Below are positions 16,523 through 43,559 of a DNA stretch of 48,397 bases, piece after piece. The position numbers and the translations under genes were made by a program. Each line of letters begins with the position of its first letter. The first letter of the stretch is position 1. The notes under the pieces are model-generated. The model made no database searches, was not told the origin of the DNA, and saw only the letters and a list, made by a program, of their open reading frames with translations. Source of the stretch: a virus; the IMG/VR virus record IMGVR_UViG_3300044616_000832, positions 1 to 48,397 of that record; one strand, written 5' to 3'.

Positions 16523-16756
16523 ATGTATATCATTATTAGAATCAAACAATACGATGGCGAAAAAGGGAAATATTGGGGTGTGGATCACGGTCACGGATTT
16601 CCTTCTGTTCTGCACGAACGATACGATGAAACAACAGAAGAAGCCTCTCGTTTAGCAAAGCAAAATCCTGACTGCCATTTTGCGATTTTTGAATACGACA
16701 CAGCCGCAATTTGTAAAATGCAACCTCCAATTTGGATCGAGAAAGAAGACCTATGA
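16523..16756 (+). CDS. Hypothetical protein, 77 aa
   Basis: 77 residues with a beta-strand start (MYIIIRIKQYD) and a mixed alpha/beta pattern ending in PIWIEKEDL. The start follows AACAATAAAT with no SD. It overlaps the following glycosyltransferase by four bases (ATGA), so it may be expressed with that cluster. No domain is recognised. Confidence 0.55.
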   Translation: MYIIIRIKQYDGEKGKYWGVDHGHGFPSVLHERYDETTEEASRLAKQNPDCHFAIFEYDTAAICKMQPPIWIEKEDL

Positions 16757-17868
16757 GATTTCACATTCTTGGATTACCGCATACTGTTACGAATAAAGAA
16801 TTTGTTGCGTGCGCTTATACGCAGAAAGTTCTGAAATTTGGGAAAATGATGAAAGACCTCGGACACGAGATCATTCATTACGGCCACGAAGATTCAGAGC
16901 TTATGTGCGACGAGCATGTCACAGTTCTGACCAACGACGATTTCCAGAAAAGTTATGGTTCCCACGACTGGAAAAAAACCTTTTTCAAGTTTGATACTGG
17001 CGACCATGCGTATCAAACCTTCTACGCCAACGCGATTCGGGAAATTGCAAAGCGAAAACAACCGAACGATTTTCTTCTTCCATTTTGGGGATCAGGAGTC
17101 AGAGCAATTTGTGACGCTCACGGCGACATGATCGTTGTAGAACCGGGAATCGGATACGCTGGAGGACATTGGGCGCGGTGGAAAATTTTTGAATCCTACG
17201 CGATTTATCACGCTTATTGCGGATTAGAGTCTGTAGGAACTTGCCGCCAAGATTGGTATGAAGTTGTTATTCCGAACTATTTCGACCCCAAGGATTTTGA
17301 ATACAATGAAAACAAAGGCGATTACTATCTTTATCTTGGCCGAGTTTATGGCGGCAAAGGATGCGAAATCGCATTTCAAGCGGCAAAGCTGGCAAATGTT
17401 AAATTGATCGTCGCCGGACAAATTGAACAAGGCTACAATCTGCCAGACCATGTGGAATATGTCGGCTACGCCGATTCAGAAAAAAGAAAAAACCTGATGA
17501 GCAACGCCAAGGCATCTTTCATCCCTTCGCAATACATTGAGCCGTTCGGAGGAGTTCAAGTTGAAAACCTTTTCTGCGGGACTCCAACGATAACAACTGA
17601 CTGGGGAAGTTTCGCGGAAAACAATCTTCACGGAGTCACCGGATACAGATGCCGAACGATGGGGGATTTTGTTAGAGCGGTTCAACTAATTGAATCAGGA
17701 ATGATAAAATCAAAAAATTGTCGCCTATGGGCTGAAAACTTCTCTTTGGAGAGAGTTGGCAGGCTTTATGAGAAGTATTTTAAGGATGTTCTGGATGTTT
17801 ATACTGGCAAAGGCTGGTATGCAGATTGCAATGGTTTAACTCCTTTGATGAAAACATATCCGTATTGA
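16753..17868 (+). CDS. GT4-like (GT-B) glycosyltransferase
   Basis: 371 residues from the ATG overlapping the previous stop. The N-terminal half has a Rossmann-like start (MRFHILGLPH). The C-terminal half has typical GT4 donor-site features: YYLYLGRVYGGKGCEIAFQAA, then VKLIVAGQ, and the signature EPFGGVQVENLFCGTPTITTDWGSFAE with the glutamate that contacts the nucleotide sugar. The acceptor is unknown. It begins a three-gene island with an FkbM-type methyltransferase and another GT4-like protein, suggesting synthesis or decoration of a glycan, possibly on virion proteins. Confidence 0.8.
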   Translation: MRFHILGLPHTVTNKEFVACAYTQKVLKFGKMMKDLGHEIIHYGHEDSELMCDEHVTVLTNDDFQKSYGSHDWKKTFFKFDTGDHAYQTFYANAIREIAKRKQPNDFLLPFWGSGVRAICDAHGDMIVVEPGIGYAGGHWARWKIFESYAIYHAYCGLESVGTCRQDWYEVVIPNYFDPKDFEYNENKGDYYLYLGRVYGGKGCEIAFQAAKLANVKLIVAGQIEQGYNLPDHVEYVGYADSEKRKNLMSNAKASFIPSQYIEPFGGVQVENLFCGTPTITTDWGSFAENNLHGVTGYRCRTMGDFVRAVQLIESGMIKSKNCRLWAENFSLERVGRLYEKYFKDVLDVYTGKGWYADCNGLTPLMKTYPY

Positions 17869-17874
17869 TAAAAT

Positions 17875-18456
17875 ATGAAATTTGATTTTGTTGATATCGG
17901 AACAAGCGATTTTGATCTCGGATATGGTTCAGTTGGCTTGCAGTCGAGCCATCTTCTTATTGAACCCGTCAGCTACTACCTTAACAGGATTCCTGAAGCG
18001 GAAGGAGTTGTGAAAATAAATGCGGCAATATCTGATCGTGACGGAGAAGGGGATGTGTATTATTTAAGCGAGGAAACAATCGCAGAATTAAAATTGCCTT
18101 TTTGGGTCAGAGGTTGCAATCGGATTAGCAGTCCGCATCCGACATTGGTAAAAATACTAAATGGTCAAGATGCGTGGAGCATTCAAAAAATTAGAACGAT
18201 AAAATTTTCAACGCTGATTCAGGAATTGAAAATTGAGGCCATCGGGAGCTTGAAAATCGACACAGAAGGACTTGATCATATTGTCTTGAGTGGCGTTGCT
18301 GATTGCATCGATTCAGGACTATCGGTTGATCGCGTAATGTGCGAGTGGGTTCCTGCTTTCGGAAACACAGAACAACTTAAAGAACTATGTTTCAGATTGT
18401 GGAATTATTTCCCGAAACAAGAATTAAAAGGCGAAGACATTTATCTGACAAAATGA
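17875..18456 (+). CDS. FkbM-like methyltransferase
   Basis: 193 residues. It starts with a SAM-binding-like strand (FDFVDIGTSDFDLGYG). Later comes the hallmark FkbM segment IGSLKIDTEGLDHIVLSGV near residues 124-142. FkbM-family enzymes O-methylate sugars or small molecules. It is shorter than many family members (about 220-270 residues) and the first motif is somewhat altered, but the KIDTEG motif is intact. It lies between two glycosyltransferases, so sugar methylation of the glycan they build is the likeliest role. Confidence 0.7.
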   Translation: MKFDFVDIGTSDFDLGYGSVGLQSSHLLIEPVSYYLNRIPEAEGVVKINAAISDRDGEGDVYYLSEETIAELKLPFWVRGCNRISSPHPTLVKILNGQDAWSIQKIRTIKFSTLIQELKIEAIGSLKIDTEGLDHIVLSGVADCIDSGLSVDRVMCEWVPAFGNTEQLKELCFRLWNYFPKQELKGEDIYLTK

Positions 18457-19358
18457 AAAATATATTATTCTTTACTCAAAATCGATGGGCCTTTGGATCG
18501 TTACATCACGGACTCGCAAAGGAGTTATGGAAACATGGCATCTACGCGAATCTTTTGGATTGGACAGTCGAATACAGCCAAGAGGAATTCAAACTTCTCC
18601 GAGATTCATACGATGTTTTCGTAACGATGCCGGATGCCGTTCTTGCTCTCCATTACAAATATGGCGTAGAACTGGAACGCATTGTTGCCGTAGCTCACGG
18701 GCAATGGGACATCCTTCTCGCCAAACAACAAGCCGATCAAGACTTCTACCCGAAGCTGAAAGGTTTCGGGGTCATTAGCAATATATTGAAAAGAAAATGT
18801 GATGAATGGCAAATCTCAAGGATTCCTGATGTCGTAGAACTCGGGATTCACACAAAGACTTATCGTTTCCAATTGCCGGAATCTTTGGGTGTTGTTGGAT
18901 ACGCAGGATCAGGAGAAACAAGGAATTGGTATGGTGAGGAAATTAAAAGGCCAAATCTGGCTGAACAATCAGTTCTCGGAATTGAAGGATTAACCTTCAA
19001 GAAGCATCAGTTCTACAACCATCTTTGTATGCCCGGATATTACAAAAGCGTGGATGCTGTAATAATGTCCTCAATAGAAGAAGCAGGAGGACTCCCAATG
19101 ATGGAGTGTGCCGCCGCTGGCCGATTGCCGCTCGGAACTCCTGTGGGCTATTTTGAAGAGAATGCACCGCAAGGCGGAGGCATCCTTTTACCTCTTGATG
19201 AAGCGGCATTTGTTCAAGAGGCCCAAGTGCAGTTGAATTTCTATCAGAAAAATAAGATGCAATTTATCGGTAGATGCAAAGAAATAAAAGAATATGCGCT
19301 TGAAAATTACGATTGGCGTGTGAAGATTGCGCCATGGATCAAGCTATTTTGTGAGTGA
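18453..19358 (+). CDS. GT4-like glycosyltransferase
   Basis: 301 residues from the ATG that overlaps the FkbM stop (ATGA). It begins MKNILFFTQNRWAFGSLHHGLA, a GT-B Rossmann start with the acceptor-domain helix. It continues with VGYAGSGETRNWYGEEI and ends in a donor-site region, SSIEEAGGLPMMECAAAGRLPLGTPVGYF, including the EAGGLPMMECAAAG stretch that contacts the nucleotide sugar. It is shorter than most GT4 enzymes but retains both domains. Acceptor and donor are unknown. Confidence 0.75.
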   Translation: MKNILFFTQNRWAFGSLHHGLAKELWKHGIYANLLDWTVEYSQEEFKLLRDSYDVFVTMPDAVLALHYKYGVELERIVAVAHGQWDILLAKQQADQDFYPKLKGFGVISNILKRKCDEWQISRIPDVVELGIHTKTYRFQLPESLGVVGYAGSGETRNWYGEEIKRPNLAEQSVLGIEGLTFKKHQFYNHLCMPGYYKSVDAVIMSSIEEAGGLPMMECAAAGRLPLGTPVGYFEENAPQGGGILLPLDEAAFVQEAQVQLNFYQKNKMQFIGRCKEIKEYALENYDWRVKIAPWIKLFCE

Positions 19359-21109: not shown

Positions 21110-21683
21110 CAACAAGCTTCACGAAAAGTTTGCATGGCTGGTTGCCGAGGGCGATTCCCATACCGAGGCATACCGGAAGATCATGCCGCATGTCGCCTCG
21201 CCTCGCGTTCTTGCTCACAAGGTTTATCACAGAGCTGATGTTAAAAGCCGGATTTCAGAAATCCGTCAAGAGGTTGCCACCCGATCCATTCTTTCGATAT
21301 CGAGGAAGCGGGAAATCTTGCGCCAGATGGTTGAAGGCACATTCCCAACCAAGATCGTCCGCAACCCAAATGGCAACATCGTGGCAGTATTCGACCGATT
21401 GGCCGCTCTCAATATGGACGCAAAGATTGCAGGCGAATTTGCGCCAGAGCGCCATGAGATTATCGCTAACGACCTCCGCCTGACATTCAAAATTAAGGGA
21501 CGGAATACCAATGCACCAGAGGACAACGACATCATAGAGGCTGAAATCGTCGAAAGCCGAACCGATTCCGTTCCCGTCATAGAAGATGCTCCGGAAGATG
21601 AAAACTTCGGGACAGACGCAGACCTCTCGGCATTCGAGAATGCGCCAATCGACCCATCGCAACCGCAAATCGACACGCTTTAA
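21096..21683 (+). CDS. terS: Terminase small subunit
   Basis: 195 residues directly between HNH and large terminase, the usual location. The N-terminal 75 residues form a DNA-binding-like helical unit (LHEKFAWLVAEGDSHTEAYRKIM, then VKSRISEIRQEVA), resembling Terminase_2-type small subunits. The C-terminal part is acidic, as in many small terminases that form rings and contact the large subunit. It shares one base with the large-subunit start. Confidence 0.75.
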   Translation: MPPLNNKLHEKFAWLVAEGDSHTEAYRKIMPHVASPRVLAHKVYHRADVKSRISEIRQEVATRSILSISRKREILRQMVEGTFPTKIVRNPNGNIVAVFDRLAALNMDAKIAGEFAPERHEIIANDLRLTFKIKGRNTNAPEDNDIIEAEIVESRTDSVPVIEDAPEDENFGTDADLSAFENAPIDPSQPQIDTL

Positions 21684-23560
21684 TGTCTATCCGACCAACA
21701 TCACGCACAGTCGAAACGGCAATCAACATCGCCACGAAAATACGCAAGGCTGTCGAGTCCGACGAAAAGATGGGAATGCTCTATGGAGCAGAAATCATCT
21801 TACGGGAAGGAACAAAGAATCCGCCAAACGAAATCGAACTGAACGAGAAGTTGTCTCGGCAAATCATTCTGCAGTTCGTGCAGAGCCTTCTAGACAAGGA
21901 TCAGTTTGAAGCCAGCGCAACGATCTTATGGGGTCCGGATGTCTATGACTGGCGACCACGATCCAGCCGCGACACATGGCGATACTTATTTGACCACGAC
22001 TTGGTTTTGGTTCAGGGAGCGGGAGCCATGGGTAAAACATTCGGTGCGGCGGCATGGTTCTACCTTGATTGGTTCCGTGATCCGTTTTACACCAACATCA
22101 AAGTGATCTCGCTGACACGCGAACACGCCGAAAGGAACATCTTTGCCAGCATTAAAAACTTTCACCGCATGGCTCTCGTCAAACCGGAATTTCAAAAGGC
22201 TGACGAGTTGGTTACCAGCATTCAAGCATCTTCTGACGCCAAGCAAGGCATCCACCTCGTCGCAATCCCTAAAGGCGAGTCAGGCCACGGAACATTGCGC
22301 GGGTTCCATCCGACGCCTCGTTTCACTCAACCACACGGAAAATGGGGAAGGCTATCACGAACCCATGTTATTCTTGACGAGGCCGAGGAGGTGCCTGCCG
22401 GAGTTTGGGAAGGCGTCAATAACATTATATCAACTTCGGATGTCAATGAATGCCGTGGGCGCATCAAAATCTTCGGCGCGAGCAACCCGAAAGACCGCAC
22501 CAGCGACTTCGGCCAACGCTGTGAGCCAGTCAACGGATGGGGATCAATAGACTGCGAGGAAGATTTTGAGTGGGAATCCAAGGAGGGCTATCATGTTCTG
22601 CGGTTAGATGCCGCAAGATGCGAGAATGTTGAACAGCAAAAGATCGTTTTTGCTGGATTGCAGACCTATCAAGGTTTCATGGGATACATGAGCCGTGGGC
22701 GCACGGCAGAGGCAATGACGATGGCTCGCGGATGGTTCCCCGAGGAAGGTCAGGCAATGATGATCATAACGCCTGCCATGATGAACAACGCTCTTGGGAA
22801 TTTGCGTTTCATTGGCCCTGTTGTTCCGCTGGCCGCATTCGATCTTGCGTTGGAAGGCAACGATCAAGTGATATGCTCATACGGAAGGTTTGGCCTTTGC
22901 GATGGCTGGACAGACCAAGCCGGAAAGTTCCATGAATTCAAGTCGTCAAGGAATGCTTTACAACTCGATTCGCAGATTCCTTTCCCGAAGAGAGCTACGC
23001 TGGAGCAGACGCATGCAATTATCAAATTTTGCAAAAGCATGAGGATTAAACCAAACTGGCTGGCTGTTGACCGAACTGGCAACGGATCAGGAATCCATGA
23101 TTCGCTCTGCACCTTGTTTGGGCAAGAAGTGATGGGCGTCAACTACTCTTGGGCCGCATCCGAGACCAGAATCCTTGGTGAAGATAGCAAACAAGCCAAC
23201 GAATTATATAACGGAGTTGTTACCGAATTGCTGTTCGGATTAGCGAAATACTTGGAATTTGAATATCTCAAGATTAGTCCGGGGTTTCGCAATGAACAGC
23301 TTGTTCGCCAAGCCACAGGCAGACGCTATAAACAAGTTGGTCAGGGATTGGTCAGGGTCGAGAGCAAAGGAGACTATTGCAAGAGAACCAGATCAAGCAG
23401 CCCTGATTCTTTAGATTCACTTGCGATCCTCGTTTATTTGATGCGTCAACGCTCCGGTTCAATCGCCACAATGACCGAGGAAAGCAAACGCGAAGCACCT
23501 ATGGAAAAAAATCAGGAAAGCGTTGTTGACATGATGCAGTTTGTAGATTTTTCTGATTAG
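21683..23560 (+). CDS. terL: Terminase large subunit
   Basis: 625 residues with the packaging ATPase followed by a nuclease domain. Walker A is QGAGAMGKT at 111-119 and Walker B is HVILDEAEE at 228-236 (D232, E233). The coupling segment IKIFGASNPK follows near 261-270. Nuclease acidic residues lie at D387 in AAFDLAL, D463 in LAVDRTGNG and D575/D578 in SPDSLDSL, a RuvC/RNase H-like pattern. The protein drives DNA into proheads and cuts concatemers. It shares the TAATG junction with the small subunit. Confidence 0.9.
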   Translation: MSIRPTSRTVETAINIATKIRKAVESDEKMGMLYGAEIILREGTKNPPNEIELNEKLSRQIILQFVQSLLDKDQFEASATILWGPDVYDWRPRSSRDTWRYLFDHDLVLVQGAGAMGKTFGAAAWFYLDWFRDPFYTNIKVISLTREHAERNIFASIKNFHRMALVKPEFQKADELVTSIQASSDAKQGIHLVAIPKGESGHGTLRGFHPTPRFTQPHGKWGRLSRTHVILDEAEEVPAGVWEGVNNIISTSDVNECRGRIKIFGASNPKDRTSDFGQRCEPVNGWGSIDCEEDFEWESKEGYHVLRLDAARCENVEQQKIVFAGLQTYQGFMGYMSRGRTAEAMTMARGWFPEEGQAMMIITPAMMNNALGNLRFIGPVVPLAAFDLALEGNDQVICSYGRFGLCDGWTDQAGKFHEFKSSRNALQLDSQIPFPKRATLEQTHAIIKFCKSMRIKPNWLAVDRTGNGSGIHDSLCTLFGQEVMGVNYSWAASETRILGEDSKQANELYNGVVTELLFGLAKYLEFEYLKISPGFRNEQLVRQATGRRYKQVGQGLVRVESKGDYCKRTRSSSPDSLDSLAILVYLMRQRSGSIATMTEESKREAPMEKNQESVVDMMQFVDFSD

Positions 23561-23591: not shown

Positions 23592-24263
23592 ATGAAAATA
23601 CAACAGCCAAGTAAAATTGAGAAAATCGAAGTTGAAAAACTAATCCCCTACGCAAGAAACAGCCGAACCCATAGCGATGCTCAAGTGGCGCAAATCGCCG
23701 CAAGTATTCGTGAATTTGGTTTTAACAATCCTGTCCTTATTGGGCCTGATAACGACATCATCGCTGGTCATGGCCGAGTATTGGCCGCAAGAAAACTTGA
23801 GCTTACAAGTATTCCTTGTATCAAACTCGGACATCTTACCGAAAACCAGAAACAGGGATTTATTATCGCTGACAATCGTATCGCCATGAATGCCGGATGG
23901 GATGATGAAATGTTAAAACTTGAAATAGCAAAACTAAAAAATGAAAACTTCAATTTAGATTTGATTGGTTTTTCATCAGCTGAATTAGATGTGATGATAG
24001 GATCATTAGATGGTGAAAAGGTAACAAATCTAAAAGATGAATGGACTGGCATGCCAGAATATGAGAAAAAGGAAATTTGTTTTAGAAATGTTGTAGTAAA
24101 TTTTGATAATGCCGAGGATGTTACAGAATTCTTCAAAATAATTGGTCAGGATTTCACAGATAAAACAAAATCCATTTGGTTCCCTAAAAAAGAAAAAGAT
24201 ATTGTCATAGATACAATGTGGATTGATGAAGAAGCAATTGACAATTCAGATGAACAGGAATAA
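23592..24263 (+). CDS. ParB-like N-terminal domain protein
   Basis: 223 residues. The first 120 form a ParB/sulfiredoxin-like domain: VEKLIPYARNSRTHSDAQVAQIAASI, then FGFNNPVLIGPDNDIIAGHGRVLAARKL, then IPCIKLGHLTENQKQGFIIADNR. In other genomes this domain sits beside or fused to DNA methyltransferases. Here the C-terminal 100 residues contain no methyltransferase motif. The next gene, overlapping by 14 bases, encodes a TET-associated-type glycosyltransferase, so the domain may guide DNA modification. The pair is visibly more AT-rich than terminase and portal. Confidence 0.8.
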   Translation: MKIQQPSKIEKIEVEKLIPYARNSRTHSDAQVAQIAASIREFGFNNPVLIGPDNDIIAGHGRVLAARKLELTSIPCIKLGHLTENQKQGFIIADNRIAMNAGWDDEMLKLEIAKLKNENFNLDLIGFSSAELDVMIGSLDGEKVTNLKDEWTGMPEYEKKEICFRNVVVNFDNAEDVTEFFKIIGQDFTDKTKSIWFPKKEKDIVIDTMWIDEEAIDNSDEQE

Positions 24264-25134
24264 CTACCCACAATTCCCATTATACATTCCATCTAAAGGG
24301 CGAAGTCAATTTATGATGACATCGCAGGCATTAACAAAAATGGGGGTTCATCATAATATAGTTGTCGAACCACAAGAAGTTAAAAAATATCAGAATGCCG
24401 TAAGGCAAATGAATTTATTAACAAATGTAATTGAATTAGATATGTCGTATAAATCAAAATATGAATTATGCGATACTCATGGATTAAAAAAATCCACAGG
24501 ATCAGGTCCGGCTCGTAATTTTATTTGGGATCATTCTATTTCAGAAGGTCACAAATGGCATTGGATTATGGATGACAATATTCGTGAATTCTGGCGAATG
24601 ACTAAAAATAAAAGAATAAGAACTACCTGTTGCGGTTTTTGGAAAGCAATGGAAGATTTCGTTTTAAGATATATCAATGTTGGAATGGCTGGTCCATGCT
24701 ATTCAATGTTTGGATTTGGGCCAAAAGAACCATTTTGCACAAATACAAGAATTTATTCATGCAATTTAATCCGAAATGATATTCCATTTAGATGGCGAGG
24801 ACGATATAACGAAGATACGATTTTATCATTGGACATGTTAAAACAAGGATGGTGTACCATTCAATTTTATACATTTCTTCAAGGCAAAATTGCGACACAA
24901 TCTATGACAGGCGGCAATACAACCGAAATTTATCAAGATGGCACAATGGATAAATCTAAAATGCTTGTTAGAGAACACCCTGATGTTGCAAAAGTCGTTT
25001 GGAAATATAAACGATGGCACCATTTTGTTGATTATACCCCATTCAAAAAAAATAAATTGATTAAAAAGAAAAATCTTAATATTGATCGATCTCCTAAAAA
25101 TTACGGAATGAAATTAGTAACATTGGCTCAATAA
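24250..25134 (+). CDS. TET-associated-type glycosyltransferase (TAGT-like)
   Basis: 294 residues from the ATG at 24250, inside the end of the ParB-like gene. Motifs match the TAGT family as I remember it: YIPSKGRS at 12-19, IVVEPQE at 37-43, GSGPARNFIWDHSISEG at 84-100, HWIMDDNIREFWR at 104-116 with the metal-binding DD, RYINVGMAGPCYSMFG at 140-155, and RWRGRYNEDT at 181-190. In phages such enzymes are proposed to glycosylate oxidised or hydroxymethylated bases made by TET/JBP dioxygenases. No TET-like gene is seen in this window, so the acceptor base is unknown. Confidence 0.75.
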   Translation: MNRNNYPQFPLYIPSKGRSQFMMTSQALTKMGVHHNIVVEPQEVKKYQNAVRQMNLLTNVIELDMSYKSKYELCDTHGLKKSTGSGPARNFIWDHSISEGHKWHWIMDDNIREFWRMTKNKRIRTTCCGFWKAMEDFVLRYINVGMAGPCYSMFGFGPKEPFCTNTRIYSCNLIRNDIPFRWRGRYNEDTILSLDMLKQGWCTIQFYTFLQGKIATQSMTGGNTTEIYQDGTMDKSKMLVREHPDVAKVVWKYKRWHHFVDYTPFKKNKLIKKKNLNIDRSPKNYGMKLVTLAQ

Positions 25135-25138
25135 AATT

Positions 25139-25717
25139 ATGGCTAAACCAATTTGGGGCATGGTCCCTCCGGGGGGATGGCATTATCAGGACGGCGATGT
25201 TACGCTTGAAGGCTGGAGCCTTGATAATCTTTACGATGTTGTTAGGAACTATCGCGCTGAAAACAATCTTCCGCTTGGCGATGTTGTTGGAGATGTTAAT
25301 TCTTTCGTTTGTGGTAATTTCCCAAATTATTGTCATGGCGTTGATATGGTTGTTGTTACCAGCGTCGAACAGCCGAACCAGCAAACAGAACTTCTTACAG
25401 ATATTACAGTTTGGGCAAAGAATACCCTCACAACCAACAAGCGAATTGATTTCGTCACGGATGAATTGGCTGAAGCGAGAGCCAAGGTCTGCGCCAAATG
25501 TCCAAAGAATGTGAAATGGCGTAGTGGGTGCCAATCCTGCATAACAGCAACGGAACGGCTATCTGTAAGCATACGGCAAGCGCGGGAAACAAAAACCTCG
25601 CGTTCTTTGGGAGGCTGTTCTATAATGCGCCACGACAACCGGAGTGCTGTGTTTTTCGACAAAAACAATTTTAACAAACCGCAAAACTTGCCAGCAAAAT
25701 GCTGGCTGAATCAATAA
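25139..25717 (+). CDS. Conserved phage protein with C-terminal zinc-ribbon
   Basis: 192 residues just upstream of portal. The N-terminus (PPGGWHYQDGDVTLEGWSLDNLYDVV) and FPNYCHGVDM look like a conserved phage family I cannot name. Residues about 118-140 have two CxxC pairs (VCAKCPKN and GCQSCIT), followed by later single cysteines, suggesting a zinc site. It shares one base with the portal start (TAATG). A virion-associated or assembly role is likely from its position. Confidence 0.6.
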   Translation: MAKPIWGMVPPGGWHYQDGDVTLEGWSLDNLYDVVRNYRAENNLPLGDVVGDVNSFVCGNFPNYCHGVDMVVVTSVEQPNQQTELLTDITVWAKNTLTTNKRIDFVTDELAEARAKVCAKCPKNVKWRSGCQSCITATERLSVSIRQARETKTSRSLGGCSIMRHDNRSAVFFDKNNFNKPQNLPAKCWLNQ

Positions 25718-28143
25718 TGGCTAACACTATCAAACCAATTCCCGCAGAAGTCAGCAACGCATACGCAACGAAAGCTCCAAGGATTCGTGATGGTTCTGAT
25801 AAAAACCAACGGGTAGCTTTGGAAATCAAAGAGCAAAAAGTCAACGATTCTGGCGAGGTTGTTGATAAAGAAACTTTAGAAGTCCGCAGAACTTTCCGTG
25901 ACGCTTCCCAAGCCCATTCGGCCTATAAGCGTCTGAAACAGCAAAATGTTGAACGAAACAAAAAGAACGCTCTGATTCAAAAGAAGTTGAACAATGAGCC
26001 GCCATACAGCCCAAAGAAACTTGAAAGTATGGGGCAAAACTGGCGAAGCAATCGCCCGACAGGCTTCCTTTCAATTCTCGTCAGCCGGATTCAGCCACCT
26101 TTCAAAACAGTCATTGAGGCATCAACAACGCTGACATACAGCAAGTATCCAATTAACAGCGTTGATGCCGAGCAAAAGACCAAGGTATTCCGTGAAGAAA
26201 TTACCAAGACAATTCGCGGATGGAGCGGTCACAACGATTTGTTGGCGCAAATTGTCCATGAGAACACTACATTCGGATTTACCGGAATGTGTTGGGATGA
26301 CACCCGCGATTGGAAGCCAGAATTTCTGCGACAAGATTATACATTCTTCTCAATCGAGACTCCGCAGAATGTTGATGCAACTCCAATTTGGGCAAGAAAA
26401 CGCAGATATCAAATCGCTGAACTTCTTCCTATTCTGGAAGACGCCGAACTATCCGCTCTTGCCGGATGGCATATCAAGAACCTCGTAAAAGCCATCAACA
26501 ACGCTCGTCCTGCCGGAAGAACGCTCGACAGCGACGATGACGCTCGCCGATATGAGGACTGGATGCGTGAAGGTTCTTATGGGGCATCCTACGAAAACGA
26601 TGCGAAATATGTTGAGCTTGGCGAGTTGTTGGTAAAAGAGCCAACCGGAAAGATCAGCCGATTCTTGTTTGACGATAAGACAGGCGATGAAATATGCACG
26701 CAACTTGATCGCTATAATCGAATGTCAGATTGCTTGGCATTGTTTGCTATCGAAGTCGGTTCAGGTTCTTTGATGTCAAGTCGCGGAGCTGGCCGCGACC
26801 TATACAACACCCACATTGCCGTTGATAAGGCGAGGAATCTAATCATCGACAATACCTATCTTCGCGGAATGTTACTGCTCCGCAAAACTGCAACAGCAAA
26901 AAATGGCGTTGCTCCGCTGACTGTGAATCATCCGGTAGCTTTCATTTCCGAAGGCTACGAGGTTGTTCAACAGCAAATGCCAGCGGATGTTGAGGATTTC
27001 ATTCGCCTCGATCAATTCGTCAGCGGATTGGCGGAAATCCAAGTTGGAACATTCCTGCCATCGTCTGCCATGGGAATTCAAACTGGCGACAAAACAGCCA
27101 GCGAAATCAACCGAGTTGCAGCGATTGAGAACCAAATCCGTGAAGGAATCCTTTCGCGCTGGGCGTTTCAATATTCCCAATCAGTTCAGCGTATGCAACG
27201 AGGAATTTGCCATCCTGAACACATTCGTGCGGCAAGTGAAATCAAGACATTGCTGGATGTTGCGAGAGTTCAAAACCCTGCCGCTGTTTGGGGGAAACGA
27301 GATGTTGTCGAAGCGTTCCTTGAATCTGAACTTGAAGTTCCTTCTTTTGTTGTTCCGTTTGAAATCCCTCGGCATTTGGACGAGGACGCAGTTGATTGCT
27401 GTTTGCGTATGCTCGAAAGGAATCTTCCTCCGAGCGATATTTTGTTGATGGCTTACTCGCCAGCACAAGAATTGTTGCCGGATATGCTGGCCCAAGACAA
27501 TGCGATTCTGGATTTGTTGATTCAACGCTACATGGGCAATCCTTCGATCAACCAAACCGAATTGATGAAACTTGATTGGAGCCGCAAAGTCGGTCAGGAA
27601 ATTGCCAACAGCGTTCTCGTTCCGCCTGATATGGTTCAGGCTAACGCGATTGAAGCCACACGCCAGCAAGTTATCGAGTTGCAAAGCATCATGGCAGGCC
27701 AAGAGGTTCCCGTGTCGCCTCGGGACGATGACGATATTCACTTGCAGACGCTCACGCAAAAGCTGATGCCAGTCATTGCTAACGCTCCGGAAGGTTCTCT
27801 GCCTCCTGAAATGATTCAGCCGTTTACGAGAGCGTTACAGCACTACATGACGCATATCCAACAAGCCGAGGGCAAAGGCATGGATAAAAAGAAACTTCAA
27901 CTCTTCAAAGAAGGATTGAAAATGGCCTATGACAAATTGACAGCAGGAATGAATGTTCCTCCTGTTGATCAAATCATGCCTGCCGCCGCTGGCGCAGGAG
28001 GAGGCGGAAGGGGAGGCGGAGGAAGAAGGCCATCAGTAGCGCAAGCAAATATGGCAGGAGAGGCATTGGCCGCATCCTCACCAAGTCAACTCGGAGAAAT
28101 CAATCAGATTGCCGCTCCCGGAAAACCTCCAACAGCCGCTTAA
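25717..28143 (+). CDS. Portal (head-tail connector) protein
   Basis: 808 residues, the long size class found in T7-like phages with extra C-terminal length. It lies downstream of terminase. The middle contains portal-type patterns: GDKTASEINRVAAIENQIREGILSRWAFQYSQSVQRM near residues 460-500, and LLPDMLAQDN with later helical repeats. The C-terminus has a glycine-rich tail with a run of glycines and two arginines (about 765-775). The protein forms the dodecameric DNA gate. The start overlaps the previous stop; an upstream non-ATG start is less likely. Confidence 0.75.
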   Translation: MANTIKPIPAEVSNAYATKAPRIRDGSDKNQRVALEIKEQKVNDSGEVVDKETLEVRRTFRDASQAHSAYKRLKQQNVERNKKNALIQKKLNNEPPYSPKKLESMGQNWRSNRPTGFLSILVSRIQPPFKTVIEASTTLTYSKYPINSVDAEQKTKVFREEITKTIRGWSGHNDLLAQIVHENTTFGFTGMCWDDTRDWKPEFLRQDYTFFSIETPQNVDATPIWARKRRYQIAELLPILEDAELSALAGWHIKNLVKAINNARPAGRTLDSDDDARRYEDWMREGSYGASYENDAKYVELGELLVKEPTGKISRFLFDDKTGDEICTQLDRYNRMSDCLALFAIEVGSGSLMSSRGAGRDLYNTHIAVDKARNLIIDNTYLRGMLLLRKTATAKNGVAPLTVNHPVAFISEGYEVVQQQMPADVEDFIRLDQFVSGLAEIQVGTFLPSSAMGIQTGDKTASEINRVAAIENQIREGILSRWAFQYSQSVQRMQRGICHPEHIRAASEIKTLLDVARVQNPAAVWGKRDVVEAFLESELEVPSFVVPFEIPRHLDEDAVDCCLRMLERNLPPSDILLMAYSPAQELLPDMLAQDNAILDLLIQRYMGNPSINQTELMKLDWSRKVGQEIANSVLVPPDMVQANAIEATRQQVIELQSIMAGQEVPVSPRDDDDIHLQTLTQKLMPVIANAPEGSLPPEMIQPFTRALQHYMTHIQQAEGKGMDKKKLQLFKEGLKMAYDKLTAGMNVPPVDQIMPAAAGAGGGGRGGGGRRPSVAQANMAGEALAASSPSQLGEINQIAAPGKPPTAA

Positions 28144-34884: not shown

Positions 34885-37143
34885 ATGGCTGCAATAATTT
34901 TCCCTACTTCGCCTTCTATTGGTCAGATATTTTCGGCTGGCGGCAAAACATGGAGATGGAATGGTTATGCTTGGGATTCATTGGCGAACACCGCTTCTAT
35001 TGGCGCGACAGGATTAACGGGAGCAACCGGACAAGTAGGGGCGACAGGAAGCGGGGCAACGGGAGCTACTGGTGCTGGTTATGACGGAGCCACAGGCGCA
35101 ACGGGTCAAATAGGAGCCACAGGAATCGGAGCCACAGGCGCAACGGGAGTTGGCGCAACTGGTTTTACAGGCGCGACTGGAGCTACTGGATTTGGTGAAA
35201 CTGGAGCTACTGGATTTATCGGAAGCACAGGCGCGACTGGCGCGGGAACACAAGGTAGCACAGGCGCAACTGGCGTTGGAGATCAAGGCGCAACAGGACT
35301 CCAAGGCGCAACTGGAAATTCCGGAGCAACCGGAATAGGCGCAAGCGGAGCCACAGGCGCAACAGGCGTGTCTGGAAACGATGGGGCTACTGGAGCAACC
35401 GGAATAGGCGCAAGCGGAGCCACAGGTTTGCAAGGGGCAACTGGAGTTGGTTCGCAAGGGGCGACAGGAGCAACAGGAAATTTTGGCGCAACAGGACTTC
35501 AAGGCTCAACAGGCGTTGGCGAAACTGGAGCGACAGGATTTGATGGCGCAACAGGAGTTGGTTCAACTGGCGCAACTGGCGTTTCTGGAAATCAAGGCAG
35601 CACAGGCGCAACAGGTTTTGGCGCAACAGGAGCGACAGGAATTGACGGAGCTACAGGATTGCAAGGGGCAACTGGTGTTGGCGATCAAGGTTCTACTGGA
35701 GCAACTGGATTGCAAGGCGCAACAGGATTAGGCGCAAGCGGCGCAACTGGAGCTACAGGTTTGCAGGGTGCTACAGGTTTGACAGGTGCTGGTGGAGCGT
35801 CTGGTTTTTACGGATCATATTTTAGCAATGTCGATCAAACTGCTGTTGCTATTAATACTGCATATGCAATGACAGTAAATAATGTCATTGGAGAAAATGG
35901 AATTTCTGTTGTTAGCGGATCACAAATTACTTTTACAAGTTCGGGAACATACGACATTCAATTTTCTGCTCAATTGCATAACAATGGTGGTGGAGGTGGC
36001 GGCGATATTGTTCAGATTTGGTTCCGTAAAAATGGAACTGATATTCCAGATTCTGCTACTCGCGTATCTGTTCCATCGAATAATCCATATGTGGTTGCGG
36101 CATGGGACTTCATGGATAATTTTGCCTCTGGAGACAATTTTCAGATCATGTGGTCAACTAACAATATCAATATCGGTATTGACCACAACACAGCAGTTGC
36201 ACCAGCACCCAATATCCCATCGGTAATCATTAGCGTAATGCAAGTGATGTATAACCAACTTGGGCCTCAAGGCGCAACTGGCGCAACTGGTGCAACGATT
36301 TCTCCTCAAATTGACCTTTACACAACTTCTGACAGTTGGACAAAGCCCGCAGGAGCAAAGCTCGTTGTAGTTGAATGCGTAGCTGGCGGAAGTGGTGGTG
36401 GGTTTGGGGGAAAGCAGTCTGCTGGAACGGCAGTTTTTGGAGGAGCGGGAGGCGGTTCTGGTGGGTATGCCCGTGCAACAATTGATGCTTCGCAACTAAC
36501 AGATGCGAGTTATACGATAACTGTTGGTAGCGGAGGCAATGGAGGAATTGGTGCTACTTTAACGAACGCTACATTAGGAACACTCTCATCTTTTGCTGGT
36601 ATCACTCAAGGAACACTCGTTAGAGCATCTGCTGGTGGAACTATTGCTGGAAATGGAGGCACAGTCCAGCCGACATCGGGTGGTGCTGGTGCGCCTGCGG
36701 GAAATGGTGGAGGCGCGGCAAACATAACTGGAACCGGAGGTGCTGGTAGCGGAACAAACTTTTCTCCATCAAGCGGTGGTGCTGGCGGCGGTATAACTGC
36801 GGCGGCAGTTGTTGGAAATATAACAGGTGTATTCAATGGAGGAACGAGTGGCACTAATCATTTTGTTGGTTTGATAAGCAATGGAGGTGCTGCAAGCGCA
36901 ACAGCAAATGGAGGTTCTGCAACTCCAACTACTCCAAGATTATTGTCTACATTGATGATTAATGGTTCTGGTGGTGGCGGTGGCGGAGCTTGTTCATTCG
37001 CTACTGGGTCTGGTGGTAACGGAGCAAATGGTTCAGCATATGGTTCTGGTGGCGGCGGTGGCGGATCGACCATTGGTTCTGGAGACCGAAGCAATGGTGG
37101 TAATGGCGCGCCGGGAGCAGTAATGATTACAACATATTTCTAA
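34885..37143 (+). CDS. Collagen-like tail fibre with glycine-rich tip
   Basis: 752 residues from ATG 34885. The N-terminal 35 residues ([28 protein letters not shown]) look like a tail-attachment segment. Residues about 38-305 are Gly-X-Y repeats, mostly Gly-Ala-Thr with GLQ, GIG and GFT variants and a few phase breaks, i.e. a collagen-like triple helix. A globular part follows (about 306-455), then one short GATGAT run. The C-terminal 270 residues are glycine-rich loops ([29 protein letters not shown]) like the polyglycine adhesin tips of T-even-type fibres. It likely binds host surface receptors. Confidence 0.8.
34999..35800 (+). repeat. Collagen-like coding repeat, fibre 1
   Basis: In-frame nine-base units such as GGAGCAACT and GGCGCAACA (Gly-Ala-Thr) with synonymous drift, repeated across about 800 bases. 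Similar units occur in the fibre genes at 38.4-40.0 kb and 40.8-41.8 kb, which makes recombination between fibre genes possible. Confidence 0.8.
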
Positions 37144-37146
37144 ACC

Positions 37147-37311
37147 ATGGAAATCGACGACTGGGCAATCATCAACACGGCAGGCAACTGGATCGAGATG
37201 GTCATCCGTTGGGACGGGAATACGGAAACTTGGCCGCTCCCCGAAGGAACATACGCAGTTAAACGAAAAGATTTAGATTATTCAACTATTAACGAGAAAC
37301 CAGAAGAATGA
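37147..37311 (+). CDS. Small hypothetical protein, 54 aa
   Basis: 54 residues, rich in tryptophan and acidic residues (IDDWAIINTAGNWIEMVIRWD), starting three bases after the fibre stop and overlapping the holin-like start by four bases (ATGA). Phages often have a short W-rich protein of this type between fibre and lysis genes. No function is known. Confidence 0.6.
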   Translation: MEIDDWAIINTAGNWIEMVIRWDGNTETWPLPEGTYAVKRKDLDYSTINEKPEE

Positions 37312-37484
37312 ACGACAATACTGCTATCAATGGAATTTTAGGAACATCAACTTCATTAGGTGGCGTTGCCATTTCTCTTTTCCCTCAAGTTGAGGCATGG
37401 GTTCGCTTAAGCGGTGCTGTTGTCGGCTTGGTTGCTGGCATTCTTACTTGCATCTACATGATTCAAAAAATTTCAAAAAAATGA
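37308..37484 (+). CDS. Holin-like small membrane protein (a)
   Basis: 58 residues, overlapping the previous stop (ATGA). It has a weakly hydrophobic first segment (LGGVAISLFPQVEAW) and a clear transmembrane helix (VVGLVAGILTCIYMIQ), with a basic C-terminus (KISKK). The size, topology and place in the lysis cassette fit a small holin, but a membrane accessory role is also possible. It overlaps the lipoprotein gene by four bases. Confidence 0.6.
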   Translation: MNDNTAINGILGTSTSLGGVAISLFPQVEAWVRLSGAVVGLVAGILTCIYMIQKISKK

Positions 37485-37639
37485 ACCCTAAAAAAATTGC
37501 AATGTTGCTCATTCTGGTTTCTTTTACTTTTCTCGGAATGGCATTCTTAACGGGATGCGAAACCCTCGGAATATCCCTTGAAACTCAATACGGAAGATTC
37601 ACCTACGAACTACCAGAACCGAAAGGAACAAAAAAATGA
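37481..37639 (+). CDS. Small lipoprotein in the lysis cassette
   Basis: 52 residues. A signal peptide (KKIAMLLILVSFTFLGMAFL) ends in TGC, a lipobox, so the mature lipoprotein is only about 25 residues (ETLGISLETQYGRFTYELPEPKG). Tiny lipoproteins in lysis cassettes can be the outer-membrane spanin part, although no matching inner-membrane spanin with a long coiled coil is seen next to it. Start and stop overlap both neighbours (ATGA). Confidence 0.65.
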   Translation: MNPKKIAMLLILVSFTFLGMAFLTGCETLGISLETQYGRFTYELPEPKGTKK

Positions 37640-37809
37640 AAATCGTAAATATCCTACTTGAACGGCTGTCAGAAAACAGCACATGGCGCGGAATCATTCT
37701 TATTGCTACCGCTGTTGGTGTAAAACTTGAGCCGGAACTTCAAGAATCAATCATCGTTGCTGGCCTTGGATTGGTCGGCCTAATCAATATTATCCGTAAA
37801 GGAAAATGA
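37636..37809 (+). CDS. Holin-like small membrane protein (b)
   Basis: 57 residues matching a small holin-like pattern I recognise from phages: STWRGIILIATAVGVKLEPEL, a first hydrophobic helix, followed by ESIIVAGLGLVGLINIIRK, a second. Two short membrane helices and a basic end suit pore formation just before the endolysin gene, which it overlaps by four bases. Confidence 0.7.
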   Translation: MKIVNILLERLSENSTWRGIILIATAVGVKLEPELQESIIVAGLGLVGLINIIRKGK

Positions 37810-38342
37810 TTCCCCAATCCAGACCTCAACAACGACGAGAAGTTTCTGAAAAACACCTGTTGAAAGCAGGCGTTTCAGATAAACTCGCGTTGTTGGGGAT
37901 TCGCGGATACTTTAAAGACACGATGGGCGTGAGGGGAAAGAACGATAGAGGTATTTACGATGATGCGATTTTCGTAATTTCTCCTTCTGCTTATGTTTCC
38001 TTCAACGCCAATACTGACCCGTCTTACCATAAAACGGGGGTTGCCGTTCTTCTTCCCGGACTTTATCGTTATCGCAAAGGAAAACATGGGATTTCTAAAG
38101 GTCCGGGATATGATGCTCTCCGTCCCGCGACCGCGAATGAAGCATTACCAGTTATGCGAGACGGAAAAGGAATTTCTACTGGTTATCACATCAACATTCA
38201 TAAAGGATCGTTGAGTTCTACATCATCATTAGGATGTCAAACAATACCTCCATCACAATGGCTTGCTTTCCAGACTCTTGTATATGAGCAAATGAACAGG
38301 TATTGCCAAACGACAGTTCCATATTTGTTAATCGAAGCGTAA
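37806..38342 (+). CDS. Putative lysis enzyme with L,D-transpeptidase-like motif
   Basis: 178 residues directly after the holin-like gene, the usual place of an endolysin. The C-terminal half has STGYHINIHKGSLSSTSSLGCQTIPPSQW, which resembles the catalytic HG...S-x-GC of L,D-transpeptidases (YkuD) with glutamine in place of the usual following arginine. No signal peptide is present. It may cut or alter peptidoglycan cross-links; known lysozyme or amidase motifs are missing. The function is inferred from position and this short motif. Confidence 0.55.
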   Translation: MIPQSRPQQRREVSEKHLLKAGVSDKLALLGIRGYFKDTMGVRGKNDRGIYDDAIFVISPSAYVSFNANTDPSYHKTGVAVLLPGLYRYRKGKHGISKGPGYDALRPATANEALPVMRDGKGISTGYHINIHKGSLSSTSSLGCQTIPPSQWLAFQTLVYEQMNRYCQTTVPYLLIEA

Positions 38343-38345
38343 TAT

Positions 38346-40265
38346 ATGCCTAAACAATTTAATTGGGTTCCAAGTTCGCAAGGCGGAAGTTGCCAATCAA
38401 CAAATCTTGATTGCAATTGGCCTATTGTTGGCGCAACGGGCGGAGTCGGCGCAACAGGAGCGACTGGCGTTATCGGAATGACCGGATTGCAGGGAGCAAC
38501 CGGAATTCAAGGGCTAAAAGGAGCAACTGGATTTGGCGCGCAAGGACCGCAGGGGGCTACTGGCGCGATTGGGCAACAAGGGGCAACCGGAAGTGGCGCA
38601 ACAGGATTAACGGGAGCCAGCGGAGCGACTGGCCTTCGCGGAAGCACGGGTTTTATCGGAACAACCGGAGCAACTGGCCCGATTGGTATTTCTCCCGTCA
38701 TTACTCGCAGGAGTTTTACTTTAGAAGGAATTTGGGTTGGTCAAAAAACATTTTTTTATGCTCCTGCTGATGTTGGATGGACTGTTGGTTCCCGTATTCG
38801 CGCAGTTGCAGATTCGGCTTATCCTTTTGATTGGGTTGAAGGCAATGTTCTTGGTGTTTCCAATAGTTATGTAATTGTTCAAGTAGATAAAACTCAAGGA
38901 GCAGGTCAATACAATGTTTGGGATATTGCTCTTTCTGGTGATGGCGGGAAAGGATTTACTGGAAGCACAGGAACAATCGGATCGACTGGAGCGACTGGAT
39001 TTCAAGGGGCAAGCGGAATAAATACAATTTACGCTGAAAATAATCCAATACCTCCTTTGTCTCCAGTCGAAGGGCAAAGATGGGTTGATACCGACACATT
39101 GCAAGAGTATCAATGGTATAGCAATACTTGGGTTGAAGTAAATTCTCCAAATGTTGGCGCGACTGGGGCAAGTCCTGATGTGTCATCTTTCGTTCAGAAG
39201 TCAGGCGACACGATGATTGGGAAACTTGTTGCTCCAGCAGATGCCAATGTATCAAGATTAAATATTGGAAATAACATTGGTTCAAATGTTCCAACAACTA
39301 CAACAAATGGAGATTTGTGGATAAATGATCTTAATAAATTATCATATAAATCTAATTCAACGAATTATTTTACAGCAGTAACAAATACTCCAAACACATT
39401 TAGTTTTAGCACAGGAATTGATGTAAGCAATACCACTCACGCATTGCGAGTTACTCAAAGAGGGACAGGGGAAGCGTTTCGCGTAGAAGATGAAACAACA
39501 CCAGATGCAACTGCTTTTGTTATCTCTAATGCTGGACGAGTTGGTGTTGGCGTTACTCCAGACGCATCAGTTTCACTTTCTGTTGATACAACAGGAATTA
39601 AATTTGGTGATGGAACGATTCAAACAACCGCTTCTGTTGCTGGCGCAACAGGATTGAGAGGTGCAACTGGAGCGGGAGCCACAGGAGCCACAGGATTTAT
39701 TGGCGCGACCGGAGCCACAGGATTGCAGGGCATCTCTGGGAATATTGGGTCAACAGGAGCAACAGGAATTCAAGGAATTTCTGGAAATATTGGATCAACA
39801 GGAGCAACCGGAATTCAGGGAATTCAGGGAATTCAGGGAGCAACCGGAGTTCAGGGGATTCAGGGAATTCAGGGAGCAACCGGAGTTCAGGGGATTCAGG
39901 GGATTCAAGGCGCAACTGGAATAGGAACGCAAGGAATTCAGGGTGCAACTGGAGTGGGCGCAACAGGAGTTCAGGGAATTCAGGGGATTCAGGGATTTCA
40001 AGGCGCAACTGGCCCAGCAGGCGGGGGCGGGACATCAGTCGCGGGTAATGTCTGGACATTTACTGGAAATGGATCGACAGCAACTTGGACATTGACAGGA
40101 AACACTACTGGGCCTACAAATTCCGCATTGTATTTAGCGGCAGTTGATGGAATACTTCAAGCACCCGCGAACTACACGATCAATAATGTTTCGCCAAGAA
40201 CAATTACAATTTCAACAGTTCCAAACGGCAGTTCACTCGTTGTAGTTTCACTATCAAACGCATAA
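38346..40265 (+). CDS. Collagen-like tail fibre protein 2
   Basis: 639 residues. Collagen-like Gly-X-Y blocks ([18 protein letters not shown] types) lie at about 29-115, a short one near 200-225, and about 430-560. The first two flank non-collagen beta-type segments ([18 protein letters not shown]). A '[22 protein letters not shown]' type segment (about 240-262) follows. The last 75 residues form a module with [20 protein letters not shown], also found in the next fibre. The C-terminus may bind the host or the next fibre protein. Confidence 0.75.
39640..40020 (+). repeat. Collagen-like coding repeat, fibre 2, with clustered GAATTC
   Basis: The GIQGIQ and GVQGIQ repeats are coded by near-identical units such as GGAATTCAG, giving about seven GAATTC sites between 39765 and 39990. 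The units repeat in tandem, so slipped-strand or recombination changes in length are likely. Confidence 0.7.
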
Positions 40266-40278
40266 CAAAATCAAAACA

Positions 40279-42009
40279 ATGTCTTGCAATAACAATAATC
40301 AAAATTCGCCTTGTTGCCCTGAAATTCCTTACCCTCAAATTTCAGCAGAATCGGTTCCTTCATTGATTGGAAATCTTGTTTATGCGCTTTACGGAGTTAT
40401 CAACAAAAGCGTGGTCAATGGCCGTGTTGTTTGGGATATTCCGTGTGATCCGAATAATACTACCGAGGTTGAACAGATTCCGCGAGAAGAAGGGGAAGGA
40501 TTGCTGTGTTACCTTCTTCGTTTGTTTGCAAATTCGCTTGATAGCTATGGTCAGTTTTTGCGGTGGGGGTTTTCTACTGTTGGGCAAACCCAATTTACTT
40601 TGACAGGAGCATGGCAACCTGACCGAAACGCCTATATCGTTTATGTAAACGGAGTCGTTCAAGACCCAATTTCCTACACCATTTCGACAACTCTTCCGAG
40701 AGTTTTGACAAGATCAGTTGCTCTTACAAGCGGACAAACATTGACTGTTGTTGAGCTTTCCAGCAAAAAAGGAGAAACCGGAGCTACTGGATTTCAAGGA
40801 AGCACGGGATTCACGGGATTCACGGGAAGCACGGGGTCGGGCGCAACAGGATTTCAAGGAGCAACTGGAACTGCTGGCAGTGCTGGCCCATTTGGAGGGA
40901 TAAGATGGGCTTATTTCGGAAACGGAACGCAGACTCAATTTGTAATAAATGGAGCAACGACAGATAATGCTATTGGTTATCAAGTCACAATTGATGGAAT
41001 TGTTCAAGACCCGAATAATTATTCTGTGTCAGGAACAACGCTTACCATGTCTTCTCCTGTTCCTGATGGTTCTGGAATTGTAATAATAAGCCTAAATGGA
41101 ATTGCAGGTTTTCAAGGCGCAACAGGGCCAAGCGGAGGGCCAATCGGAGCAACTGGCGCGACAGGGGTTGGCGCAACTGGATTGCGCGGAAGCACAGGAT
41201 TTCAAGGCGCAACAGGATTTGGAGAAACTGGCGCGACTGGATTTCAAGGTTCTACTGGGCCGTCAGGAGGCCCGACTGGCGCAACAGGATTTACGGGGGC
41301 AACAGGAGCCGCCACACCAGCAGGCGGAACAAGATGGGCATTCACAGGGGACGGAACTCAAACGGCATTCACGATTACGGGAGCGGCAACAAATCTCGCA
41401 ACGGCATATCTTGTTGCTATTGATGGAGTGGTTCAAGACCCAAACAATTATACTGTTAGCGGAACCACACTCACGATGTCAACAGAAGTTCCAAATGGTT
41501 CTGGACTGGTGATTGTGTCAATCACAGGACAAATAGGCGCAACAGGACTTGCTGGATTTGGTGCAACTGGAGCAACAGGAATGCAGGGAATTCAGGGAAT
41601 TCAAGGCGCAACTGGAAATTCTGGAGCGACAGGAAATTCCGGAGCGACAGGAGCAACGGGAATTGGAAACCCCGGAGCTACTGGCGCGACTGGTTTTACA
41701 GGAGCAACTGGGCCAAGTGGAGGACCAATTGGCGCAACAGGCGCAACTGGTTTTCAAGGTGCAACAGGAATTCTTCCTGCGTCTAATTTTGGGAATGTGT
41801 GGTCATATACAGGTGATGGAACGCAAACAGTATTTGCAATCACTGGAGGACTCTCTATAATTTCTGCCGCTTACCTCGTTACAATTGATGGCATCGTTCA
41901 GAAAACAACAAACTACACAATCAACAATGTCATCCCAAGAACATTAACATTTAGTCAAGCGGTTCCAAACGGATCAGAAATCAACATCGTATCACTTTCA
42001 GTAGCTTAA
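40279..42009 (+). CDS. Collagen-like tail fibre protein 3 with repeated beta modules
   Basis: 576 residues. The N-terminal 90 residues ([20 protein letters not shown]) may attach it to the virion. Four related 60-70 residue modules follow (about 95-160, 210-275, 350-415, 510-575). Each has a (F/Y)xGxGTQTxFxI start, an IDG(I/V)VQDPNNYxVSGTTLT core and VPxGSGxVIxS end. Collagen-like G-X-Y spacers lie between them. The last module matches the end of fibre 2. The repeat suggests a long flexible fibre with serial beta-sandwich domains. Confidence 0.75.
41105..41775 (+). repeat. Collagen-like coding repeats, fibre 3
   Basis: Gly-Ala-Thr-coding spacers at about 41110-41320 and 41530-41775 flank a beta module. 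They use the same GGCGCAACA/GGAGCAACT-type units as fibres 1 and 2. A further short block lies at 40770-40880. Confidence 0.7.
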
Positions 42010-42045
42010 CAATCAAACAACAATTAAAATAGAAAAACTAAAATT

Positions 42046-43182
42046 ATGCCAATCACTCAATCGACACCAAATGTCATTAAATCAAATGTTTTGCAAGGTT
42101 CACCTTTGCTTGTAACCGCTGGAAGTCCAGTAAATTTTTCAAATTTACAATTTGTAAAAAACGGGACAATAAATGGAAGAAATACTTATTTTAATGATGA
42201 TTTAAATGATAGGGTTACAATTTCTTATACTGGAACAAATTGGAAAATAGAAGAAGTGGACGATGATACTGGCGCAATTCGAATAGTAAATGCAAGTGCT
42301 GGCTCTCAAACTTATCCTTGGCAAGCCACATGGCCCGCTGGAACATCTTTTGTTTTTGGAACTCCAGTTGCTAATACAAATTCATTTTTCGGAACAGCAG
42401 AAAGTGACCCGCAAACGGGTGGAATTTCTTGGATAGGTGAAAATACAGCAATAGGATATAACACATTAGTTAATCTTGTTTCAGACCCAAGCCAACGAGC
42501 AGGCGTAGCTGATAGATGGCAAGCGAGAAGCAATACAGCACTTGGGTCTAAAGCTTTGTCTGAATCTACTGAAGGAAGTTTTAATACAGCACTTGGAGCA
42601 GACGCATTGATATTAAATTCTCAATTTGTTCAAAATTCAACTGCTCTTGGATATAACGCTCAAATAACAGCAAGTAATCAAGTTCGTCTTGGCAATACTT
42701 TCGTAACAGCAGTCACTTCCCAAGTAGGGAATCTTTCTGACGAGAGAGACAAAGCAGAAATCCGAAACACGATTCTTGGGTTGGATTTCATCAAACAACT
42801 ACGACCCGTTGACTGGAAGTGGGACTTTCGCGAAGATTATCGTGAAAAAGCACCTGTTCGACCATCAAGTGATGCTACTGAAGAAGAAAAAGAGGCATAT
42901 AAATTGGCCCATGCAAAATGGCTTGAAGATTCCAAACTTGCAAATATTACGAACGACGGAACACACAAACGCACTCGTTTCCATCATGGCTTGATCGCGC
43001 AAGAAATTAAATCATTGATTGAAACGACTGGAGTAGATTTTGGTGGATTCCAAGATCACACAATCAAAGGAGGTGATGAGTGCATGACTATTGGTTATAC
43101 TGAATTGATTGGCCCAATGATCAAGGCAATCCAAGAACTTTCTGCTGAAGTTGCTTCTTTGAAAGCTCAACTGAACCCCTGA
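42046..43182 (+). CDS. Tail fibre/spike with S74-type intramolecular chaperone
   Basis: 378 residues without collagen repeats. The first 225 residues are beta-rich (FGTAESDPQTGGISWIGENTAIGYNTL, then NTALGSKALSESTEGSFNTALG). The end (about 229-378) is a peptidase S74-type chaperone: LSDERDKAEIRNTILGLDFIKQLRPV with the cleavage-site serine, then HHGLIAQEIKSLIE, CMTIGYTELIGPMIKAIQEL and a leucine-rich C-terminal helix. S74 domains trimerise fibres and then cut themselves off. This suits a receptor-binding protein. Confidence 0.8.
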   Translation: MPITQSTPNVIKSNVLQGSPLLVTAGSPVNFSNLQFVKNGTINGRNTYFNDDLNDRVTISYTGTNWKIEEVDDDTGAIRIVNASAGSQTYPWQATWPAGTSFVFGTPVANTNSFFGTAESDPQTGGISWIGENTAIGYNTLVNLVSDPSQRAGVADRWQARSNTALGSKALSESTEGSFNTALGADALILNSQFVQNSTALGYNAQITASNQVRLGNTFVTAVTSQVGNLSDERDKAEIRNTILGLDFIKQLRPVDWKWDFREDYREKAPVRPSSDATEEEKEAYKLAHAKWLEDSKLANITNDGTHKRTRFHHGLIAQEIKSLIETTGVDFGGFQDHTIKGGDECMTIGYTELIGPMIKAIQELSAEVASLKAQLNP

Positions 43183-43183
43183 T

Positions 43184-43555: not shown

Positions 43556-43559
43556 AAAT

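Follow-up and report, generated by a model that had tools for sequence, protein, structure and literature searches.

A phage gene cassette coupling a ParB-like protein to a TAGT-family glycosyltransferase, exchanged with TET-containing cassettes and probably involved in TET-independent glycosylation of DNA

Solitary TAGT glycosyltransferases are present in 288 of 753 phage genomes, and TAGTs are widespread in the absence of any T4-type glucosyltransferase, their substrate being an open question (PMC13216743). A product has been described for just one TAGT, the ggt protein of phage T6 (PMC13216743, PMC13390438). The Aeromonas phages Aeh1, 65 and phiAS5 have been listed as carrying a 'glucosyltransferase, unknown base' (PMC8056088, citing Iyer 2013). 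Of these, Aeh1 and 65, in which the TAGT is fused to the GMPE domain described below, lack gene 42 (PMC2993671). Fusions of ParB with methylases are already known as well (PMC5512222).

The window, that is, the entire 48,397-nucleotide stretch of viral DNA analysed here, encodes a ParB-like protein followed by a TAGT (Table 1). The TAGT gene matches the whole PF20691 profile (positions 1-205; E = 4e-37, 128.5 bits against a cut-off of 27.5) and phrog_842 (E = 9e-49), in agreement with the earlier note, which had assigned it to this family from the motifs YIPSKGRS, IVVEPQE, MDDN and RGRYNEDT, all of them present. Both ORFs are real where that note had placed them, and of the interval 24250-25134 proposed for the TAGT, the gene holds but not the start, which is more likely ATG 24253, resulting in an 11-bp overlap with the end of the ParB-like gene, or TTG 24223. 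The DDN motif and the Asp of the Glu-Asp pair are invariant among 68-83 aligned sequences, and the pair as a whole is invariant or nearly so. No significant sequence relatives were detected in the PDB, and the best structural match of the AlphaFold model (pLDDT 93) is GlcNAc-transferase I (E = 1e-4), a metal-dependent GT-A enzyme. The protein is a TAGT-family GT-A glycosyltransferase with intact catalytic residues that probably transfers sugar to DNA. The association with TET/JBP from which the family name derives is a matter of context, not a sequence criterion; the complete genome of this phage contains no PF12851 domain. The low G+C content noticed for the gene pair is confirmed, at 34.2% in the cassette and 32.5% in 24001-25134, against 44.3% in the rest of the sequence.

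Table 1. The cassette and its borders in the window
Feature	Coordinates	Strand	Remarks
Terminase large subunit (TerL), left border of the exchange site	21683..23560	+	phrog_2, E = 2e-8
ParB-like adaptor protein, 223 aa (putative adaptor)	23592..24263	+	ParB_N-fold domain, ~aa 1-140, then GMPE domain
Exchanged block	23913..25136	+	No DNA similarity to the closest relatives; flanks 89-92% identical to L211
GMPE domain, aa 149-213 of the ParB-like protein	24036..24230	+	W-x-G-M-P-E ... KTKSIW[FHY]P
TAGT glycosyltransferase, GT-A fold	24253..25134	+	PF20691, phrog_842, predicted structure
Asp-Asp-Asn (DDN), DxD-type metal/donor motif	24571..24579	+	Invariant in the family
RYNEDT with conserved Glu-Asp pair, candidate catalytic base	24802..24819	+	Glu-Asp, 24811-24816
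Cys-rich protein, 192 aa (C192), right border of the exchange site	25139..25717	+	

The ParB-like identity of the upstream protein is likewise upheld, by matches to phrog_620 and phrog_15396 (E = 1e-53 to 1e-56), by the match of a profile built from its family to ParB/Noc structures (E = 3e-12), and by a Foldseek search that retrieves ParB/Noc (E = 3e-7) with the predicted ParB-GMPE structure (pLDDT 89; N-terminal part ParB/Noc-like); the PF02195 match falls slightly below the curated cut-off (E = 1.7e-5, 25.2 bits against 26.3). The sequence carries an AGHGR box, the GxxR box of the ParB N-terminal Srx-like domain. There is little room for the DNA-binding HTH of ParB: the profile match stops near position 115 and GMPE begins at aa 149, and the Foldseek alignments to ParB/Noc extend further than the profile match, with a poor superposition. 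This ParB module also occurs in other phages as part of fusions with DNA methyltransferases (61% identity to P8625; phrog_498, E = 5e-51).

The last ~65 amino acids of the ParB-like protein constitute a domain for which we coin the name GMPE. Its sequence pattern, DEWTGMPEY...NFDNAEDVTEFFKIIGQ..TDKTKSIWFP, includes seven positions that are invariant across 12 diverse proteins; it matches no Pfam or PHROGs model and has no significant sequence relatives in the PDB. In the ParB-GMPE model, the domain is mostly one helix, with no paired strands, and therefore may depend on a partner surface. Relatives of the TAGT in viral contigs have the ParB-like gene directly upstream, and some keep just its C-terminal ~65 residues. 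When GMPE was searched by itself, a TAGT was found downstream in 80 of 80 loci and, in a second pair of scans, in 83 of 85, the two exceptions being contig ends within about 300 bp (the two sets of loci have some contigs in common). The GMPE and TAGT genes overlap, are fused or are at most 20 bp apart at 77 of 99 loci; about half of the remaining 22 have a recognised extra glycosyltransferase gene in between, and in most of the other wide-gap loci, the gap is long enough for one. ParB is detectably fused to GMPE at 53 of the 99 loci, and because the other 46 have GMPE with no detected ParB, ParB is ruled out as the conserved partner of the TAGT, a role that belongs to GMPE. This domain is an obligate neighbor of this TAGT subfamily, in every examined locus with enough contig. 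The combination of ParB and TAGT is not the unusual one that it had been taken for: dozens of unrelated phages have it too.

GMPE and TAGT form a single polypeptide in the cultured Aeromonas, Vibrio and Tenacibaculum phages Aeh1, 65, POP12, PTm1, Kuja, 1.076.O and 1.124.O and in the metagenomic contigs L090, L168, L184, L186 and L188. In L183, a Gly_transf_sug-like domain is N-terminal to ParB-GMPE, and L011 has an open frame for a ParB-GMPE-TAGT triple fusion that is uncertain, with two N bases nearby. In L187, the protein upstream of GMPE-TAGT joins ParB with a PAPS-reductase-like domain. In the T4-like L018 and L019, GMPE and TAGT are separated by an additional, divergent TAGT, and genes for the synthesis of sugars (GHMP-type kinase, SIS isomerase and epimerase, recognised by eye) stand upstream of the TAGT. 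A homolog of the phrog_3704 ('ferredoxin') protein encoded at window positions 4651-5355 lies directly upstream of GMPE-TAGT in L024.

The gap between TerL and C192 is an exchange site. The earlier note had placed the pair between terminase and portal; the terminase is indeed upstream, whereas the portal assignment of 25699-28143, although plausible, finds no PHROG match and no match in phages. Among the sister phages, identified via the terminase, the closest ones (L211, L212 and L215; TerL 96, 92 and 92% identical, respectively) have in this slot ParB with a tail of its own, Tet_JBP and a different TAGT. ParB, Tet_JBP and TAGT are also found in L218/L291; ParB, Tet_JBP and another glycosyltransferase-like protein in L244; two ParBs and Tet_JBP in L220; and ParB alone in other relatives; in many of the more distant ones, the slot is nearly empty. 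The ParB-only versions in L227, L231, L239, L241 and L243 have no obvious adjoining enzyme, and several of them end in a CPKCxxEFVK zinc-ribbon-like tail. Nucleotide similarity to all five relatives compared ends at 23912-23914, around ParB codon 107, and restarts at 25137, 2 bp before the next gene, in L211, L212 and L215; the similarity of the ParB proteins continues to about aa 133 (77% identity to L211), after which the tails differ. In all 32 loci that carry the TET-linked tail (RQIILVYP...NNTEV..LL), a TET gene comes next, and the GMPE tail goes with a TAGT, so that the tail predicts the enzyme, and ParB appears to be a shared adaptor, with a C-terminus that may specify the enzyme. Homology between the two tails is unsupported (hhalign probability 0.3%).

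That the window contains no oxidase, as previously observed, is correct, and the oxidase does not lie outside it either. The record IMGVR_UViG_3300049629_000715 (G001; 61,346 bp) is a permuted second assembly of the same phage, identical to window positions 1-37072 and, apart from a collagen-repeat difference, >99% identical to 37009-48397; its ends form an exact 64-bp terminal repeat, which closes the genome at 61.3 kb. The collagen-like repeats in the tail genes differ in copy number between the assemblies (window 38346-42009 and L025:1-4900). The 12.9 kb outside the window encode tail or internal virion proteins and, in two consecutive genes (L025:14189-15154 in G001), a PAPS-reductase-like and a CxxCxxCC protein. 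The full-genome search that had been suggested for TET/JBP and thymidylate or dCMP hydroxymethylases was run and found none: Pfam scans covering almost every plausible ORF, together with searches of the whole records, detected no TET/JBP (PF12851) in the window or in the complete genome, and the complete genome contains neither the thymidylate-synthase/hydroxymethylase family that includes dCMP hydroxymethylase (PF00303) nor a C5-methyltransferase (PF00145). The identical TET search was positive in six relatives and, hence, is able to detect their type of TET.

Among 22 cassette-bearing records, many of the metagenomic ones being fragments, TET was not detected in any, a C5-methyltransferase match was found in one and PF00303 in seven. 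The PF00303 gene of Aeh1 is an ordinary thymidylate synthase, which fits the published finding that this phage lacks gene 42; a weak additional match at 22089 is spurious, being antisense to a longer ORF. Atypical genes of the thymidylate-synthase family occur in PTm1 and perhaps in 65 and Kuja, so that a hydroxymethylated base is possible in these phages, which counts against a TET-independent reading. Elsewhere in the window, a DpdA-like transglycosylase (212 aa) and QueD (PF01242) at 5531-6546 are likely to comprise a 7-deazaguanine DNA module, with QueD present in the closest relative (G014) and absent from eleven further relatives identified by terminase. Upstream of the terminase genes, two GT4-type glycosyltransferases flank an FkbM methyltransferase (16732-19358), a separate glycan cassette.

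We estimate at about 0.65 the probability that the ParB-like protein and the TAGT make up an exchangeable, TET-independent phage DNA-glycosylation cassette. DNA is suggested as the substrate by the swap with TET under a common ParB, by the ParB-methyltransferase fusions, and by the placement of the cassette beside the terminase or beside the gp46/47 recombination genes, and on these grounds, DNA hypermodification, as originally surmised, appears probable. The ParB-fold part, common to the ParB-DNA-methyltransferase fusions and the ParB-TET cassettes, would be a DNA- or nucleotide-linked adaptor, the C-terminal GMPE would dock the adjacent GT-A enzyme, and the latter would move a sugar from a nucleotide sugar onto a phage DNA base, possibly shielding the phage DNA from host nucleases. 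Because the GMPE-TAGT cassette occupies the place of ParB-TET-TAGT, the sugar would be added without a phage-encoded TET, dCMP/dUMP-hydroxymethylase or C5-methyltransferase. Recombination within the 5' part of ParB, which the two cassettes share, may have put it where the sister phages have ParB-TET-TAGT.

The central question is where the sugar is attached when the oxidase is absent. It is conceivable, if speculative and in our estimate rather unlikely, that GMPE-TAGT glycosylates a canonical base directly (for example, at an exocyclic amine) without prior oxidation, and that phages trade systems of this kind for TET-dependent ones, all of them using a universal ParB adaptor with an enzyme-choosing C-terminal tail. 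Possible, if doubtful, is a requirement for an oxidised base, hydroxylated by the host or by an unrecognised phage enzyme, so that this TAGT would work like the TET-linked ones: the TAGTs of the sister phages come after TET, ggt of T6 works at a step after dCMP hydroxymethylase (PMC13390438) and many ORFs of the genome belong to no family, but the lack of TET, PF00303 and PF00145 in the complete genome, the lack of TET in the cassette-bearing records and that of a known hydroxymethylase in Aeh1 (PMC2993671) all weigh against it.

The TAGT could also target protein, RNA or a surface glycan, the ParB-like protein having an unrelated role, for example, as a nuclease or in packaging. The GT-A fold is promiscuous, with a glycan-acting GlcNAc-transferase as the best structural match here, and Gly_transf_sug, GT4 and epimerase genes near some copies fit a non-DNA glycan as well; the copy in Vibrio phage 1.076.O sits between portal and head-morphogenesis genes. 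Two more points count against the DNA reading: T6 ggt, the TAGT of described product, has no GMPE and escapes the profile because of its distance, and the ParB part has little room for its DNA-binding HTH. Nevertheless, given that this cassette and a TET cassette replace each other in one slot and under a shared ParB, that the ParB-methyltransferase fusions provide parallels and that T4-like copies adjoin recombination or replication genes, we consider a target other than DNA improbable. Far less credible still is the previously suggested acceptor, a 7-deazaguanine produced by the phage's own QueD and DpdA-like genes: these share the genome with the TAGT, but QueD is found in 0 of 20 other TAGT cassette-bearing records and, in the closest relative, accompanies a TET+TAGT cassette instead; moreover, to our knowledge, preQ0-type bases offer no hydroxyl.

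The close phages that differ at one locus, TET+TAGT versus GMPE+TAGT, represent a natural experiment on the TAGT substrate, and the cultured phages with fused GMPE-TAGT put nucleoside analysis within reach. The ParB-tail rule, whereby GMPE goes with TAGT and the other tail with TET, is a handle for finding DNA-modification enzymes. The addition of sugar to DNA with no preceding oxidation would, if true, be a chemistry new to DNA and might also be a novel means of countering restriction and CRISPR. The GMPE domain, its linkage with TAGT, the tail rule and the exchange between TET and no TET at one site appear to be new, with no earlier description in the literature searched, which did not cover Iyer 2013 (gkt573), reportedly the paper that named the TAGTs, so that priority is not certain.

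The TET-associated TAGT systems (PF12851; L211, L215 and L218/L291) share with the window cassette the genomic slot, the ParB N-terminal module and the PF20691 family, but in the window phage, TET is missing, the ParB tail is GMPE and the TAGT belongs to a separate, distant branch. The beta-glucosyl-HMC-alpha-glucosyltransferase (ggt) of T6 and T2, assigned to PF20691/phrog_842 by literature and annotation, has an Asp and a Glu-Asp that align with those of the window TAGT but, unlike the latter, has no GMPE, lies beside gene 42, is used with an alpha-GT and does not match the GMPE-TAGT profile; T-even hmC glucosylation, furthermore, includes a dCMP hydroxymethylase (PF00303), in contrast to the complete genome of the window phage. 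Phages Aeh1, 65 and phiAS5, T4-like giants with no ParB, whose GMPE part is undescribed in the literature searched, resemble the window cassette in combining GMPE and TAGT, there in one polypeptide, and Aeh1 and 65 also in lacking gene 42. In the ParB-DNA methyltransferase fusions (phrog_498; B. cereus Bce_0392), a ParB module up to 61% identical to that of the window protein is likewise joined to a DNA-modifying enzyme; the effector is a fused methyltransferase in that case and, in the window phage, a glycosyltransferase connected through a separate GMPE domain.
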